Positions 20,167 to 58,029 of a stretch of DNA of 64,000 bases are shown here, one piece after another. The notes beneath the pieces were generated by a model that saw only the letters and a program-made list of their open reading frames with translations, did no database searches and had not been told where the DNA came from. Both the position numbers and the translations under genes were made by a program. Each line of letters opens with the position of its first letter. The stretch's first letter is position 1. This stretch comes from Thermococcus radiotolerans (GTDB lineage Archaea > Methanobacteriota_B > Thermococci > Thermococcales > Thermococcaceae): positions 372,001 to 436,000 of the forward strand of contig NZ_CP015106.1 in NCBI RefSeq assembly GCF_002214565.1, in the 5' to 3' direction.

Positions 20167-22866
20167 ATGTCCCTCTTTGAGACACTCAAGCCCCTCAAGT
20201 CCGAGATAGCGAGGGTCCACGTTTTTCCTCCTAAGGAAGGCGAGTTCGGCAACTTCCGCTTCGACAATCCCGAAATAAACGCCCTCCTCGAAGAGCTCGG
20301 CTTTACCCTCTACCGCCATCAGGTTGAGGCCCTCGAGAGGCTCTACTCGGGAAAAAACATCGTCGTCACCACGCCAACGGCCAGCGGCAAGAGCGAGATA
20401 TTCCGGCTGGCCATCTTCGACTCCTATCTCTCAAACCCCCGCGCGACTTACCTGCTCATATATCCCACGAGGGCCCTCATAAACAACCAGCTTGAGAAGT
20501 TCTCGCTTCAGAACCTCGTCTTCTACCGCCTCACCGGAAAGCACGTGAGCGCGAGGATCCTGACCGGAGACGTCCCGTGGGAGGAGAGGAAAACCTTAAT
20601 TCGCGAGAAGCCGAGGGTTATCTTCACCACCCCGGACATGCTCCACTACAACATTCTGCGCCGCTGGAGGGACTACGAGTGGCTCCTAAGGAACCTCCGC
20701 TATCTGGTCGTTGACGAGCTCCACGTTTACAGGGGCGTCTTCGGGAGCAATGCGGCCTACCTCTTTCGCCGCCTCGACTTCAGGCTAAGGCGCCTTGGGG
20801 CGAAGCCCCAGATCATAGCGCTCTCGGCAACGCTCAGGAACCCGAAGGAGTTCGCGGAGAAGCTCTTCAGGAAGGAATTCGAGCCGGTAAGCGGTGCCAC
20901 CAACCCCTTTCCAAGGAGGTACTTGGTCCTCTTCGAGCCGAAGAACCTTGACGAGAGGCAGCTCCTCCGGGCGGCCGTTGAGAGGCTCGCTGGGGGGGAG
21001 GTTAAGACGCTGGTCTTCTTCGACAGCAGGAAGGGGACGGAAAAGCTCCTCCGTTTCCTCCTCAGCTCGCCGGTCTTTCACAGAACGAGTACCTACAAGG
21101 GGACCCTGCCGAAGAACGTCCGCTGGGAGATAGAGCGGGACTTCAAGGAGGGCAAACTGCTCGTTCTCCTAACGACCAACGCCCTCGAGCTCGGCATAGA
21201 CATCGGCGACCTCGATGCAGTCATCAACTACGGCATCCCTCCCGACGGCCTTTTCTCCCTCATTCAGCGCTTCGGAAGGGCCGGAAGGAAGGCCGACAGG
21301 GAGGCCCTCAACGCCATAGTCCTCAGAAAGAACGGTCTCGACTACTATTACAGGGATCACTTCGACGAGCTCGTCGATAGGCTGGAGCGGGGAATAATCG
21401 AGTACATGCCGGTCAACCTGGAGAACGAGCGCATAGCCAAGAAGCACCTTCACTACCTCCTCACCGAGCTGGGGATAGTCGACTGGGACGAGCTTGACGA
21501 GTTTGAGAGGAAGATAGCAGAGAGGCTCGTCATCGAGAGGAAGGCAGACCTGAAGAAAAATCCGCTCACGGGAAGGCTTGAAGTCCGCCTGAGGAAGCCG
21601 GCCTTCAGCTACTCGTCACTGAGAACCGCGAGCGACGAGACGTTCTTCCTCGTCAAGGACGAGCCGTGGATAAGGGGCAAGCTGATGGAGAAGTCCTCGC
21701 TCAGGGAGTTGCTCAACTTCATCAACTGGCTCAAGCTCAAGGGTTACATCATCGAGGAGGTCGATTCCGACGAGTACCACCGCTCGCTCCTCCCGGGAAT
21801 GGCCTACTTCTCGCGGGGAGAGCTCTACATGGCCGGAGACAGGCTTTCCCTCGGAAAGTTCCACTTCGTCTTCGCAAGGCAACTTAACCGCTTCTGGGAC
21901 GTGGAAACCTTCGTGGCCAAGAGGGAGGAAGTGGAGATACTGAAGAGCAGGGAGGAGAAAACCTACCGGGGAGTCGAGATACACCTCGGCCGGCTGAGGG
22001 TCAGGCACGTCTACACTGGATTCGCCGTCAAAGGGGCCGACACCGGGAACTACGTCGGTGAGCTGATCAGGTTGAAGGAGGACGGCATCCTACGTGGCGA
22101 GATACATTCCCCGATGACTGGCGAGAGAATCGAGGTCGGGGAGGACTTCTCGATCCTCAACTGGGAGAAGTTTGCGAAGGTCGAGTTTGAGGAACCCTAC
22201 ATCAGGGAGTTTGAGACCGATGGAATATGGCTCGTTTTCCCAGATTCGATAAGGGAAGTCACGAGCGAGGAGTTCAGGGAGTTCTTCGATGTGGCCGCCG
22301 AGAAGGGCTTTGAAGACCCTGCCTTTACCCTTTACACCAACCTCGACAGGAGGAAGCTCTTCCCGCTCTACCTCGGGACTACCACCCACGTCATAAGGAA
22401 GGCCATCGGTGACGCCCTCCAGAGGCTCGGAATCAGCGATGAAGAGCTGGCCTTTGCGATAAAGAAGATGATCGACAGCAAGGACGGAATCGGCTCGGCG
22501 CTTCACGCGATAGAGCACAACATGATAAAAATCGCCCCCATCTTCACCTACGTGGATTCGAGGGAGCTCGGCGGCTACAGCTACGCGAGCTTCCCGGGCT
22601 TACCCCACGTCGGAAGGCCGGTCGTGTTCATCTACGACGGCAACGAAGGGGGAGCGGGCCTCGCACCGATAATCTACGAGAACGTCGAGATGCTGATGGA
22701 GAAGAGCCTTGAGCACCTCCGCTCCTGCCCCTGCCAGGACGGCTGTCCCGTTTGCACGCTCTCCCCGAAGTGCGGCACCTTCAACGAGTTCCTGGACAAG
22801 TGGGCCGCGATAAGGGTCTGGGAGAGGGTTCTGGAAAATAAAGTGGAGAGCCTCAATGGGAACTGA
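20167..22866 (+). CDS. Hrq1/YprA-type DEAD/H helicase with DUF1998 zinc region
   Basis: This 899-residue superfamily 2 helicase has the motifs in order: TPTASGKS (69-76), PTRAL, TPDML, DELH, SATL, then the second RecA-like domain with TNALELGIDIG and QRFGRAGR. The C-terminal third ends in CPCQDGCPVC...C, the four-cysteine site of DUF1998/MrfA-type helicases. Relatives (yeast Hrq1, bacterial YprA/MrfA, archaeal homologues) unwind DNA 3' to 5' and act in repair of cross-links and other lesions. It stands alone on its strand; its 3' end overlaps the convergent ATPase gene by 14 bp. Confidence 0.9.
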   Translation: MSLFETLKPLKSEIARVHVFPPKEGEFGNFRFDNPEINALLEELGFTLYRHQVEALERLYSGKNIVVTTPTASGKSEIFRLAIFDSYLSNPRATYLLIYPTRALINNQLEKFSLQNLVFYRLTGKHVSARILTGDVPWEERKTLIREKPRVIFTTPDMLHYNILRRWRDYEWLLRNLRYLVVDELHVYRGVFGSNAAYLFRRLDFRLRRLGAKPQIIALSATLRNPKEFAEKLFRKEFEPVSGATNPFPRRYLVLFEPKNLDERQLLRAAVERLAGGEVKTLVFFDSRKGTEKLLRFLLSSPVFHRTSTYKGTLPKNVRWEIERDFKEGKLLVLLTTNALELGIDIGDLDAVINYGIPPDGLFSLIQRFGRAGRKADREALNAIVLRKNGLDYYYRDHFDELVDRLERGIIEYMPVNLENERIAKKHLHYLLTELGIVDWDELDEFERKIAERLVIERKADLKKNPLTGRLEVRLRKPAFSYSSLRTASDETFFLVKDEPWIRGKLMEKSSLRELLNFINWLKLKGYIIEEVDSDEYHRSLLPGMAYFSRGELYMAGDRLSLGKFHFVFARQLNRFWDVETFVAKREEVEILKSREEKTYRGVEIHLGRLRVRHVYTGFAVKGADTGNYVGELIRLKEDGILRGEIHSPMTGERIEVGEDFSILNWEKFAKVEFEEPYIREFETDGIWLVFPDSIREVTSEEFREFFDVAAEKGFEDPAFTLYTNLDRRKLFPLYLGTTTHVIRKAIGDALQRLGISDEELAFAIKKMIDSKDGIGSALHAIEHNMIKIAPIFTYVDSRELGGYSYASFPGLPHVGRPVVFIYDGNEGGAGLAPIIYENVEMLMEKSLEHLRSCPCQDGCPVCTLSPKCGTFNEFLDKWAAIRVWERVLENKVESLNGN

Positions 22867-23983
22867 ATTTTCCAACGGCCTCCCTGAGGAGCGGGTCTTC
22901 AACCCAATACCTTTTTTCCGATGAACGAACGAAGCCCGCCTTTTCCAGCGTTTCAAGGTATTTGTAGACGTGCTGTACCTTGGTAGGGGCGAGGCCGATG
23001 GATTGAAGCCTCCGGTAGATTTCGGCTCCCCTGAGGGCGCTGGGATAAGCCTCGGCCAGGACTCTGAGGACTCCTATGTAAACCTCACTGTTGTAGACGT
23101 TCAGAAAAGCCTCTATGTCCTTCCGCCATTCCTCAAGCGCATACCTCCTGCTTTCCTCAAGGGCCATCGGGAGCGCTTCTTCAGGGCTTTTTCCATCCCT
23201 CACGAAGTTGACGACCGTGATGCCGTAGTGGGAGATGAATCCAGGGACTCCCCCCAGCTCTTCAACGGCCCTTGAGAGCTCCAGTTCGTTCGCCACATTT
23301 ATCCCGTAGCTCCTGAACCCCTCCATGAGGTAGCCCCTTCCTTCTTCGGTGCTCCATCTCGGAAGGGTGAAGATTTCCGCCGAGCGCATGAAGTTGGGCC
23401 TTTCGGCTCCTGGGTTTAGATACTCAACCAGCATACCCGGCATTGAACCCGTGAAAACGAGGGAGATGTTCAGATAGCTGTCGGTTATCTCCTGCAGGAG
23501 ACCCCTGAAGTCGAGGTTCTTCAGCCTCGCCAGAACCTGGGCTTCATCGAATATCAAAACGCCCAGCCTGGCATTCTGGGAGAGGACTCTAACCAGTGTT
23601 GAAAAGTCCCTGCTGAACTCTTCGATGCTCGTTTTTCTCACCTCAACACTGAGGCCCCTGAAGGATATTGTATAGCTCTTGCTCGTCGTTATCATCTTCA
23701 ATGACGTTCTCTTTGGTTCTATATCTGATATTGAAATTGCCCTTGAGCCCATGAAGCGAGAGAAGTTGAAATAGACGTAGTGGTGTCCCCTCTTTCTCCG
23801 CAGCTTTTCCGCCATCACGCTGACCACGCTCGTTTTCCCCACCCTTCTCGGGCCGAGGAGAACCGCGGTGTTACCGCGAAGGACTGCACTGAGGAGGTCT
23901 TCAACGGCCTTTCTGTGACCCTCCCCCCAGAGACACTCCTCTTCCATCACTGGCCTCGTCCGGAAGAAGTTTTTACATGCCAT
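22853..23983 (-). CDS. Archaeal AAA-type ATPase (Arch_ATPase family)
   Basis: This 376-residue protein has a P-loop GPRRVGKTS near 44-52, LIFDEAQ (Walker B) near 143, FTGSMPG sensor 1, and a C-terminal winged-helix-like domain (RRLQSIGLAPTKVQHVYKYL). This is the archaeal ATPase family of STAND-related proteins, expanded in Thermococcales. Roles are unproven; links to mobile or defence elements have been suggested. There is no DUF234 region, unlike the second ATPase at 55362. The ATG at 23983 overlaps the edge of a perfect inverted repeat (23982-24010), and the only SD (GGGGTG) lies inside that repeat. It follows YigZ closely on the same strand. Confidence 0.85.
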   Translation of the reverse strand: MACKNFFRTRPVMEEECLWGEGHRKAVEDLLSAVLRGNTAVLLGPRRVGKTSVVSVMAEKLRRKRGHHYVYFNFSRFMGSRAISISDIEPKRTSLKMITTSKSYTISFRGLSVEVRKTSIEEFSRDFSTLVRVLSQNARLGVLIFDEAQVLARLKNLDFRGLLQEITDSYLNISLVFTGSMPGMLVEYLNPGAERPNFMRSAEIFTLPRWSTEEGRGYLMEGFRSYGINVANELELSRAVEELGGVPGFISHYGITVVNFVRDGKSPEEALPMALEESRRYALEEWRKDIEAFLNVYNSEVYIGVLRVLAEAYPSALRGAEIYRRLQSIGLAPTKVQHVYKYLETLEKAGFVRSSEKRYWVEDPLLREAVGKFSSH

Positions 23984-24024
23984 GTAATTTACACCCCATG
24001 TAAATTACATACCATGTAAATTTA
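23982..24024 (-). promoter_or_regulatory. Palindromic control region of the first archaeal ATPase gene
   Basis: Perfect 12-bp arms ATGTAATTTACA (23982-23993) and TGTAAATTACAT (23999-24010) flank a 5-nt spacer. Read as direct repeats, a 16-bp unit beginning ATGTAA starts at 23982, 23998 and 24014. On the minus strand a TATA-like CTTTAAATTT lies at about 24015-24024, which puts the transcription start inside the palindrome. The SD GGGGTG (23992-23997) is also inside, and the ATG overlaps its last two bases. The layout suits an operator for self-repression or an RNA hairpin hiding the SD. Confidence 0.55.
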
Positions 24025-26142: not shown

Positions 26143-26509
26143 CAACAAACTTTTGCATGGCAAAAGTTTGATCAAAAAGTTGGTGATTCCTTTTGAAAAG
26201 TGTGTGCTGGAGTGGATTTCTTTGAAAATCCCTTTTTGGGCAGAACAAGGATTCATTCAACGGGAGTGTTTAAGTGAGGGTTCAAGAGTCTTTAGCGCTC
26301 CTTTGGAGCGCGGTTCAAGTATCACGGACAAGTTTTAGAGCGCACGCTCTATCTTATAGCTGTTTAAAGGGAACTTTTGGTTAAGCTTGGCCGATCAGAG
26401 ACTGCACTGCCATCCTCAACCTTGCCGGCAAAAGTTTAATCAAGAGGTGATGATTTTTGGGCGCTCCTTTGAGGAGGTTGCCTTGTTGAATGGTCTTTAA
26501 TGAAGAATT
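26143..26509. repeat. Repeat-rich noncoding DNA after tRNA-Thr
   Basis: There is no gene in this 367-bp AT-rich stretch. It holds: an inverted repeat AAACTTTTGC/GCAAAAGTTT (26147-26169); two direct copies of GCAAAAGTTTRATCAA followed by GGTGAT (26160 and 26428); two copies of GCGCTCCTTTG (26295 and 26461), the first a perfect hairpin GCGCTCC-TTT-GGAGCGC; and a perfect hairpin TAGAGCG-CA-CGCTCTA (26336-26351) followed by GGGAACTTTTGGTTAAGC. The last two blocks recur after tRNA-Ser. No transposase or integrase remnant was recognised. Confidence 0.6.
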
Positions 26510-55361: not shown

Positions 55362-56705
55362 TCAAGCGGGCCTTTCGAAGTCCCCCAAGTCCCATACAAG
55401 CCGACCCCCTTCCCTCAGCTCTTCCTTCCCTTCAACACCCTTAGCCACCAGCCCATAGCTCTTCTCCCAATCGTCAAGCCTCACAAGCTCGGCCTTCCTC
55501 TCCAAGTCCTTCAAGATTCCTCTTGCTTCCCTTTCACTCAGCTCCTTCCATTTGACTTCAACAAATAGGACTTTTTTCTCCCTCTCGTTCAAAGTCACCA
55601 AGTCAATCTCCTCGTTCTTGTACCACCACTTTCCAATCCTCGTGAATCTGAAGGGAAGTTCCCGTGCCTTGTTCAGCTCGATTAAAAACTGCTCGGCAAT
55701 CTTCTCAAACACCGGGCCGAGATAGTGGTTGTAGTCCCTTTCAATCTCCTCGACGTCAAAGATTCCCTCCTCGATGGCCGAGAGGTTCGGATAGATGAAG
55801 CGGAACCAGAAGGCGAGGAAGTTGTCGGCCACGTAGTAGCGGCCCCTTTTCGAGTTCGGTTTTTCGGTTATGGGAACCTCCCTAACAACGAGGCCAGTTT
55901 CGATTAAGTTCCTCAAGTAGGGTGTTACATCTGAGTGTCTCATTCCGATGAAGTCCCTTATCTCCTTTGGTGTCGTTTTGCCGAGGGCTATCGCCTCAAG
56001 GATTCTTCTGTACGTCCTTGTCTCCGTGAATTCGTACCTCAGCAGGAAATCTACTTCGTCGCGGAAGAAGCTTACAGGGTTTCTCAACTCCCTATCAAGC
56101 CACTCCCAGAAGGGCAACCGGACCTGCGTTATGTAGAACGGAATCCCATCGGTCATGCCGTAGACTTCCACGAGCTCCTCCCAGCTTGAGCGGGGATAGA
56201 ACTCCCGCAGGTGAAAGAACTTTAGGGGTTTGAGCTTCATTGAGCCCGTCCTCCTCCCGTAGAGGGGACTCTTGTAGCTGAGCACCTTCTCCGTCATCAT
56301 GCCCACCGAAGAGCCAAGGAGAATTAGCTTCGTGTTTGAATTCGAAAGATCTGTGTCAATAACTCTCTGAAACTCGCTTAGAACTCTCGGATCTTCTTTT
56401 ATCAAGTTCGGAAACTCGTCAATGACGATGACCTTCCCTCTTAGGGTGTGGAGGAGGGCCTCCCAGCTTCCACGGGCGTATCTCGCCTCTGGAAAAACCC
56501 TCTCGGCGGTCTCCCGAAAGTGCCTCAGGTTATCTCCTTCAATGGCCAAGTAGTAAACGTGGGGAACGTCTTTCACTGCTTCGAGGACGAGACGGGTCTT
56601 CCCAACGCGCCTTCTCCCATAGATGACGATTAGCTCGAAATTCTCGCTTGAGAGCCGTTCTCTCAGTGCCTTAAGCTCCTCATTCCTATTTACGAACTTG
56701 ACCAT
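55362..56705 (-). CDS. Archaeal ATPase with DUF234 nuclease-like tail
   Basis: This 447-residue protein has a P-loop IYGRRRVGKTRL (about 28-39), VIVIDEFPNL (Walker B), LLGSSVGMM (sensor 1), a winged helix (about 240-290) and a DUF234 C-terminal domain with EEIDLVTLNE and LFVEVKWKE, which suit a PD-(D/E)XK nuclease-like fold. It is the second archaeal ATPase of the window. Base composition is more AT-rich than in the neighbours, which hints at transfer. The ATG at 56705 abuts a 12-bp perfect palindrome arm; GGTGAT within the arm is the only SD. It follows tiaS on the same strand and ends 16 nt from the FGGY stop. Confidence 0.85.
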   Translation of the reverse strand: MVKFVNRNEELKALRERLSSENFELIVIYGRRRVGKTRLVLEAVKDVPHVYYLAIEGDNLRHFRETAERVFPEARYARGSWEALLHTLRGKVIVIDEFPNLIKEDPRVLSEFQRVIDTDLSNSNTKLILLGSSVGMMTEKVLSYKSPLYGRRTGSMKLKPLKFFHLREFYPRSSWEELVEVYGMTDGIPFYITQVRLPFWEWLDRELRNPVSFFRDEVDFLLRYEFTETRTYRRILEAIALGKTTPKEIRDFIGMRHSDVTPYLRNLIETGLVVREVPITEKPNSKRGRYYVADNFLAFWFRFIYPNLSAIEEGIFDVEEIERDYNHYLGPVFEKIAEQFLIELNKARELPFRFTRIGKWWYKNEEIDLVTLNEREKKVLFVEVKWKELSEREARGILKDLERKAELVRLDDWEKSYGLVAKGVEGKEELREGGRLVWDLGDFERPA

Positions 56706-56750
56706 GTGATAATCACCGTTATGATAATGGTGATTATCACTTTAAGCCTT
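56706..56750 (-). promoter_or_regulatory. Palindromic control region of the DUF234 ATPase gene
   Basis: Perfect 12-bp arms GTGATAATCACC (56706-56717) and GGTGATTATCAC (56729-56740) flank an 11-nt spacer that itself holds TTATGATAA. On the minus strand a TATA-like GGCTTAAAGT lies about 56741-56750, which puts the start near 56720 inside the palindrome. The ATG follows the proximal arm directly, with GGTGAT inside that arm as the SD. The distal arm overlaps the last four bases of tiaS. Confidence 0.55.
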
Positions 56751-58029
56751 TCGCTTGCAGGAGTTCTAAAACCCTCTCCTCTCCACCCGGCAGAACCAGC
56801 GGCCTCGACAGGTGCTTCCTCGCGTCTGGCGGCACTTCGTAGATTTTCCTCTCCAGCTCGCGCGGGACTTCAACCGGAATGAGCTTCTTTGGCATCTTAT
56901 GGCCACAGCGCTTGCACTTGAGGTAATCACCCTTGCTCTTCATCGTCCCGCCGCACTTCGGGCACTTCGGCTTCTGGTACTCGATCCTCGGAACGAGCTT
57001 CACCGGATAGAACTTCTCGAGGTTGAGGGTTAGCACTCCTTCGTGCTCCTTAACGCCACCAGCGGCGATTATCTCGTCTCCAGGGAGGAGCTTCCTCACG
57101 TAGTTCCTGAACTTCTTGGTCGGCTCGAAGGCAGCAACGCGAATCCTTCCCGTTTCATCCTCCAGCTCGAAGAAAACGTGCCTCCCGCGCTCCCAGTAGG
57201 GCTTAACCACCGTTCCCCTAACCACCGCGCTGTCGTATAGCTTGAGCTCGCCGATTTTCTTGTATGTAAGGTGGTCGTCGGTGTTCTGGTTCGTTTTGAA
57301 TAACTGGTAGAAGGCGACGGGCTCCTTAAACTTAACTCGCTCGAAGGTCTGGATGACCCTTCCTCTGTCGATTCCCCTGATGCCGACCAGAACGGGATCC
57401 TTGCCGTGGGGCGTTATGAGGACGCTCCTCTTGTAGGGGTCAAGGTTGTCGTAGGTGAAGGGATAGCTCCAGCTATCGGCCAGAAAGACACTCTCCTTGT
57501 CCACTCTCCTCTGCGTTCCCCAGTTGTCCGGCTCCCTGTAAGCCAGTAGTTCGTAGGTGAAGCGTTCAAGGGGATAGCCTATCGCCGCGAGGGAGCCTAT
57601 TATACCCCTCCCGACCTTGAACTTGAAGTACTCTGCCTCAACTTCCCTCGCGATTCTTTCAGCCTCCTCGATCGTAACGTGCTCCCTTAAAGCCCTCAAA
57701 GAGAACTCGCGGAGCTCTTCTGGAGTGTTCCCTTCGAAGAAGACAACACCGGGGTTAGTGTTCTCGTGAGTGAAGTCGGAAAGCTGGTTTACGTAGAAAA
57801 GGACGGTGTCTTTGATTTCCGGGATGGTCTCCTCATCGACCTCAAAGGTCATCGCGACCGCTCCGTTGCCGCGGGTCTTGTACGGGATATTTGGGTTAAG
57901 CCTAATCAAGCGGGGAAGGTCTATGGGCTCCGCTAGGCGGGAAAGCTCGCGGTACAGGAGGGCACCGAGGTAGGTGGTGCACATGCCGTTTGGTGAGTCG
58001 GTGTCGTCGATTCCGATGTGAAGCCTCAT
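56737..58029 (-). CDS. tiaS: tRNA(Ile2) 2-agmatinylcytidine synthetase TiaS
   Basis: This 430-residue protein is Tia[19 protein letters not shown] (N-terminal kinase-like part), [13 protein letters not shown], a central OB-like domain ([16 protein letters not shown]) and a C-terminal zinc ribbon [20 protein letters not shown] (about 355-375). It attaches agmatine to C34 of tRNA-Ile(CAU), so that AUA is read as isoleucine; it is essential in archaea. Length normal. Its stop codon overlaps the palindrome of the following ATPase gene. Confidence 0.96.

Follow-up and report, generated by a model that had tools for sequence, protein, structure and literature searches.

Class-specific palindromes at the promoters of DUF234-type ATPase genes suggest autorepression in a candidate defence family

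Two ATPase Genes and Their Upstream Palindromes

The window analyzed here, a 64-kb stretch of the Thermococcus radiotolerans genome, contains a gene for a DUF234-type ATPase of 447 aa (55362..56705, minus strand) that comprises an ATPase domain, a winged helix, and a PD-(D/E)xK-like C-terminal domain according to Pfam, PADLOC, and AlphaFold2. Read 5' to 3' on the minus strand, the gene is preceded by CGAAAGG-CTTAAA-GTGATAATCACC-attatcataac-GGTGATTATCAC-ATG, in which a BRE-like CGAAAGG (56747-56753) lies just upstream of a TATA-like CTTAAA (56741..56746, minus strand), followed by a perfect 12-bp inverted repeat with an 11-nt spacer and the start codon (56703-56705). The distal outer arm GTGATAATCACC (56729..56740) overlaps the tiaS stop codon, the spacer (56718..56728) holds an inner dyad TTATCATAA centered at 56723, about 23 nt from the first base of the TATA-like element, and the proximal outer arm GGTGATTATCAC (56706..56717) includes the SD-like GGTGAT. 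This order of elements and the GGTGAT within the proximal arm, both claimed in the preliminary description, were confirmed, with 41 nt from the start of the TATA-like element to the ATG. Each outer arm is a dyad of 11 bp in its own right (GTGAT-W-ATCAC), and GTGATWATCAC has three copies in the 1.87-Mb genome, two of them at this site. At 56737-56760, tiaS has CAA where a close relative has the stop codon TAA, and its reading frame continues to a TGA within the operator of the DUF234 ATPase gene.

The first ATPase of the window (22853..23983, minus strand) belongs to the ATPase_2 family, is without DUF234, and has its own, different operator (23972..24020), which covers the start codon with 22-bp arms (23972-23993 and 23999-24020, two mismatches) separated by a 5-bp spacer. 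At both sites, an inner dyad is flanked by two outer arms. The motif TGTAAWTTACA occurs twice in the genome, both times at the first ATPase, whose operator is kept in homologues of 58-100% identity; those of 35-40% identity have a different upstream repeat. An ATPase_2 search of the same genome gave 12 matches, and several of these genes have differing palindromes upstream: CCCAGTAGTTAACTACTGGG (L006), AGTACAA..TTGTACT around the TATA element (L010), and CTTGCCGAA..TTCGGCAAG (L012); none was seen upstream of an Orc1/Cdc6-like gene (L008) or at L011. Perfect inverted repeats with arms of at least 11 bp and a spacer of at most 25 number three in the window. Two of them are the ATPase sites, the sole ones in the 64 kb with perfect 12-bp arms, and the number expected in shuffled windows for arms of at least 12 is 0.12. 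The third (26146-26170, CAAACTTTTGC, 11-bp arms) lies just 3' of a tRNA-like stretch and is possibly a terminator or an integration remnant. The two ATPases do have tiaS and YigZ as neighbours, as had been claimed, and following a same-strand housekeeping gene looks incidental. An analogy to toxin-antitoxin systems that had also been drawn is not supported because the DUF234 ATPase gene is a lone gene, flanked by tiaS and a convergently oriented FGGY kinase gene, with no partner gene in the same operon of the kind found in type II systems.

The ATPase as a Member of a Candidate Defence Family

The protein matches the Pfam models ATPase_2 (PF01637, 114.5 bits, curated cut-off 33.2) and DUF234 (PF03008, 121.7 bits, cut-off 22.5) and has a MarR_2-like match; no NCBIfam family matched it. 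Residues 1-403 match the PADLOC profile PDC-S27 (E 1.5e-42), so that the protein is the same as the phage-defence candidates grouped under that name and related to PDC-S01. A 2026 paper (PMC12988326), in its passages on these families, describes PDC-S27 as an ATPase fused to a domain of the PD-(D/E)xK superfamily, counts 3503 archaeal copies of PDC-S27 and 9986 of PDC-S01, and states that validation is pending for most PDCs. We accordingly treat the window ATPase as a candidate defence protein with a putative anti-phage role.

In the AlphaFold2 model (mean pLDDT 95), helices 246-253 and 257-270 and strands 273-276 and 289-292 form a winged helix, with residues 257-270 as the recognition helix. 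Over the ATPase and winged-helix part, the fold best matches those of the solved archaeal ATPases PABY2304 (2QEN) and SSO1545 (2FNA), followed by STAND proteins and Orc/Cdc6 initiators; unlike the window ATPase, PABY2304 and SSO1545 are about 350 aa long and lack the C-terminal DUF234 part. The Orc1/Cdc6 initiators (2QBY, a DNA complex, and 1W5T) likewise combine an AAA+ ATPase with a winged helix. Their binding sites, however, are replication origins, whereas the dyad described here is in the promoter of the ATPase's own gene, and the ATPase carries a nuclease-like domain. Across 51 sequences, D368 and K385 are invariant and E383 is nearly so, which fits a PD-(D/E)xK nuclease; with this D...ExK motif the C-terminal domain is predicted to be PD-(D/E)xK-like. 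Its motif residues, the Walker motifs, and the winged helix are conserved together.

Dyads in the Thermococcaceae

DUF234 ATPases are present in 58 of 61 Thermococcaceae genomes, with 0 to 19 matches per genome. The palindrome survey that had been proposed was carried out on 115 distinct ATPase starts and 356 control genes of the same loci, with an inverted-repeat score computed over -45..+15. The mean score is 8.06 at ATPase starts versus 4.96 at controls, and a score of at least 8 is reached by 51% versus 1.7% (p=5e-43), the reverse of the equal frequency that the preliminary description had named as a refutation. Because orthologues are not independent, the proteins were grouped into 14 classes. 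The class-median dyad score exceeds the control 95th percentile in 12 of the 14, classes 3 and 14 falling below or at it, and nearly every class has its own operator, common to its members. The general plan of outer arm, inner dyad, and outer arm recurs in, for example, GTTTACT-N5-GTAAWTTAC-N5-AGTAAAC (class 11), AGTTAT-N7-GTATWATAC-N7-ATAACT (class 5), AGTTCAC-N6-TTATSATAA-N6-GTGAACT (class 7), and TACTC-N4-GTATGATAC-N4-GAGTA (class 10); some operators, such as those of classes 2 and 9, have elements in common. The operator of the window's DUF234 ATPase belongs to class 8, in which the inner dyad is conserved. Dyads are also found near the starts of Thermococcaceae DUF4143 genes (34% versus 3.4% reach 8, p=2e-8).

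Several class-9/10 ATPases, among them L116, L053, L102, and L060, are preceded by a stretch that resembles a different ATPase gene at its 3' end (WDL.DFE.L) and whose FERLI codons (TTCGAAAGGCTTATA) read as BRE plus TATA. The 3' end of a preceding ATPase gene may, from this resemblance, supply the promoter of the next.

Position of the Dyad in the Promoter

When the dyad centre was located without reference to TATA, it lay 22-26 nt from the first TATA base in 67% of ATPase genes and in 7% of controls. In 13 of 14 classes, the median distance between the TATA start and the dyad centre is 22-27 nt, irrespective of where the ATG falls; class 10 is the exception at 31 nt. The scatter of the medians is smaller in the TATA frame than in the ATG frame (sd 2.0 versus 5.9), in a comparison that searched only 14-36 nt from TATA and so somewhat favours the TATA frame. 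The dyad straddles the ATG in several classes, and in several one operator arm lies within the first codons. With its distance fixed to TATA and not to the ATG, the dyad looks like a promoter operator and not an RNA element. In archaeal promoters a dyad at such a distance from TATA is placed over the start site and the transcription bubble, a location that is apt for a repressor which acts once TBP/TFB have bound and that speaks against an RNA hairpin.

The Recognition Helix as Candidate Reader of the Operator

When windows of the protein are ranked by class specificity, residues 256-262 come second (99.5th percentile). When 200 proteins were pooled and windows were scanned for their ability to predict operator similarity, corrected for overall identity, the top four started at 260, 261, 257, and 256 and fall in the recognition helix; among relatives outside the Thermococcaceae the best window starts at 262. 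In the Thermococcaceae, Bacteria, or other Archaea alone, the recognition helix ranks only as one of the better windows (z 1.5 to 2.1), in one-per-class resamples it lies at the 75th to 96th percentile, and when operator similarity was regressed on domain identities, the ATPase domain could not be told apart from the winged-helix domain. We consider this moderate support for the recognition helix as the reader of the operator. The co-variation of operator and winged helix that had been proposed as a check holds insofar as both operators and recognition helix are class-specific, and is only moderate within sub-sets.

The ATPase and winged-helix parts have identities of 0.79 and 0.84 within classes and of about 0.41 and 0.43 between them. 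The C-terminal nuclease part (residues 351-445) shows almost no class structure, with residues 351-400 at 0.77 within versus 0.75 between classes. The protein appears to be a mosaic, as if its C-terminal part had been exchanged between classes.

Operators in Other Lineages

Relatives drawn from many archaeal and bacterial phyla show the same dyad pattern, 61% of 72 starts reaching a score of at least 8 versus 10% of 175 controls (p=1e-15). Plasmids and a few phage records also contain members of the family, and the closest plasmid relative, on the 58-kb plasmid of M. jannaschii (62% protein identity), is preceded by TGATAATTTCAATTATCATAATTATAATTATCA, a sequence that agrees with the window's class-8 operator. 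Operators like those of class 13 lie 5' of 44-47% identical proteins in Methanosarcinales, Methanomicrobiales, Altiarchaeales, and Thermoplasmata. On these comparisons of sequence, the same operator accompanies its protein into other lineages.

Orphan Operators and Gene Turnover

The class-8 pattern is present in 23 of 41 Thermococcus genomes, mostly as one copy per genome, and the reversed pattern is absent from all 41; no wider regulon beyond the ATPase gene is thus visible with this pattern in these genomes. Eight loci have a class-8 palindrome at the 3' end of tiaS and no class-8 ATPase ORF (L130, L132, L133, L135, L136, L140, L142, and L144); a class-11 ATPase adjoins the orphan at L142. 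One orphan-bearing locus, L141, retains an internally deleted ATPase remnant, and in many genomes the tiaS 3' end has neither palindrome nor class-8 ATPase. In the seven orphans examined, 13-15 of 16 base pairs are intact, versus 11-15 at operators with an ATPase, a degree of preservation that would fit either recent loss of the ATPase or sites still in use. L161, L171, L179, and L142 each have a class-8 palindrome a short way 5' of an ATPase of class 10 or 11, which gives the impression that one ATPase took the place of another there.

The preliminary description had likened the gene to a mobile cassette. Copy number, losses, and swaps bear this out only in part; the operator, however, occurs only at the 5' end of the DUF234 ATPase gene and is not repeated at its other end, and neither terminal repeats nor the defined insertion ends of a transposon or homing element were found there. 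The orphan operators leave some doubt over rejecting such an element.

Autorepression and Its Alternatives

We consider it probable that, in this candidate defence family, each class of ATPase represses its own gene through its winged helix. The winged-helix domain, as a symmetrical oligomer, would bind the nested dyad immediately 3' of TATA, at the expected place of the start site and transcription bubble, and would block polymerase loading or initiation so that the ATPase-nuclease stays scarce; every paralogue class would pair a recognition helix of its own with a separate operator, which could let many copies coexist per genome with little cross-repression. The proposal builds on the dyads, their enrichment, class specificity, and TATA-locked position, and the near-uniqueness per genome of the operators tested. 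From these we infer binding by the ATPase itself, repression and not activation as the effect of binding, and a role of induction in defence. As expected of an autoregulated gene, a dyad operator lies over the gene's own promoter and the encoded protein has, in the model, a winged helix. The self-control and the private operator for each ATPase that had been suggested thereby gain support from the survey and the class-specific operators, and the mirror-image site across the promoter is probably where the ATPase switches off its own gene. Against autorepression count the modest recognition-helix signal in sub-sets, the deviating dyad centre of class 10, the unexceptional classes 3 and 14, and the operators that persist at ATPase-less tiaS loci.

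These same orphans would suit dyads that are operators of separate host transcription factors, a reading we regard as very unlikely, given that operator type goes with protein class from genome to genome, even into a different archaeal order, that there is about one class-8 site per genome, and that the ATPase has a winged helix of its own; a dedicated regulator would need to travel with each gene, and none adjoins the window's DUF234 ATPase. The orphans at tiaS, the class-8 palindromes 5' of class-10 and class-11 ATPases, and the variable copy number could also be read as traces of a recombination or insertion site used by a mobile cassette. A palindrome at a single end, locked to TATA, makes this very unlikely, and the remnant at L141 is what decay would be expected to leave. 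It is very unlikely that the palindrome acts in RNA, as a leader hairpin hiding the SD or as a tiaS terminator: GGTGAT does lie in the proximal arm and the site does abut the tiaS stop codon, but many tiaS genes are without the palindrome, and the hairpin was set aside on the TATA-locked, ATG-straddling position of the dyad.

The conserved combination of PD-(D/E)xK-type residues, Walker motifs, and winged helix, in a listed defence candidate found on plasmids and in phage records, raises the further idea that the dyad is also a target of the ATPase's nuclease activity, marking related incoming DNA for exclusion. We consider this quite unlikely, since the host's own operator would be at risk and so long a site is rare anyway by expectation. 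A broader version, unlikely as well, would make the operator both repression site and identity tag: the ATPase-nuclease would recognise the same dyad in incoming DNA and exclude related elements, each class would be a compatibility group, and maintained orphans would be decoys or immunity tags.

Relation to Known Systems and Implications

Archaeal Phr and the C proteins of restriction-modification systems are autorepressors with dyad sites at their own promoters. These are small dedicated regulators, whereas in the autorepression proposed here the regulator domain is part of an ATPase-nuclease. No description of operators or autoregulation of DUF234, ATPase_2, COG1672, or DUF4143 genes was found in the open-access literature searched, and a literature match in M. 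maripaludis proved to be a prefix match to DUF2341 and was discarded. The passages on PDC-S27 in the 2026 account (PMC12988326) contain neither operators nor autoregulation, and the promoter dyads are the difference here. Class-specific promoter dyads of this ATPase-nuclease family are new relative to the open-access literature searched.

PDC-S27 and PDC-S01 comprise abundant defence candidates, most of them untested, and a class-specific self-operator throughout the family would make them directly accessible to experiment by predicting the DNA target of each protein. The promoter sequence lets the family be split into specificity groups, and the class-specific operators suggest how up to 19 paralogues may coexist in one genome and would supply naturally occurring, mutually orthogonal repressor-operator pairs for use in archaea.
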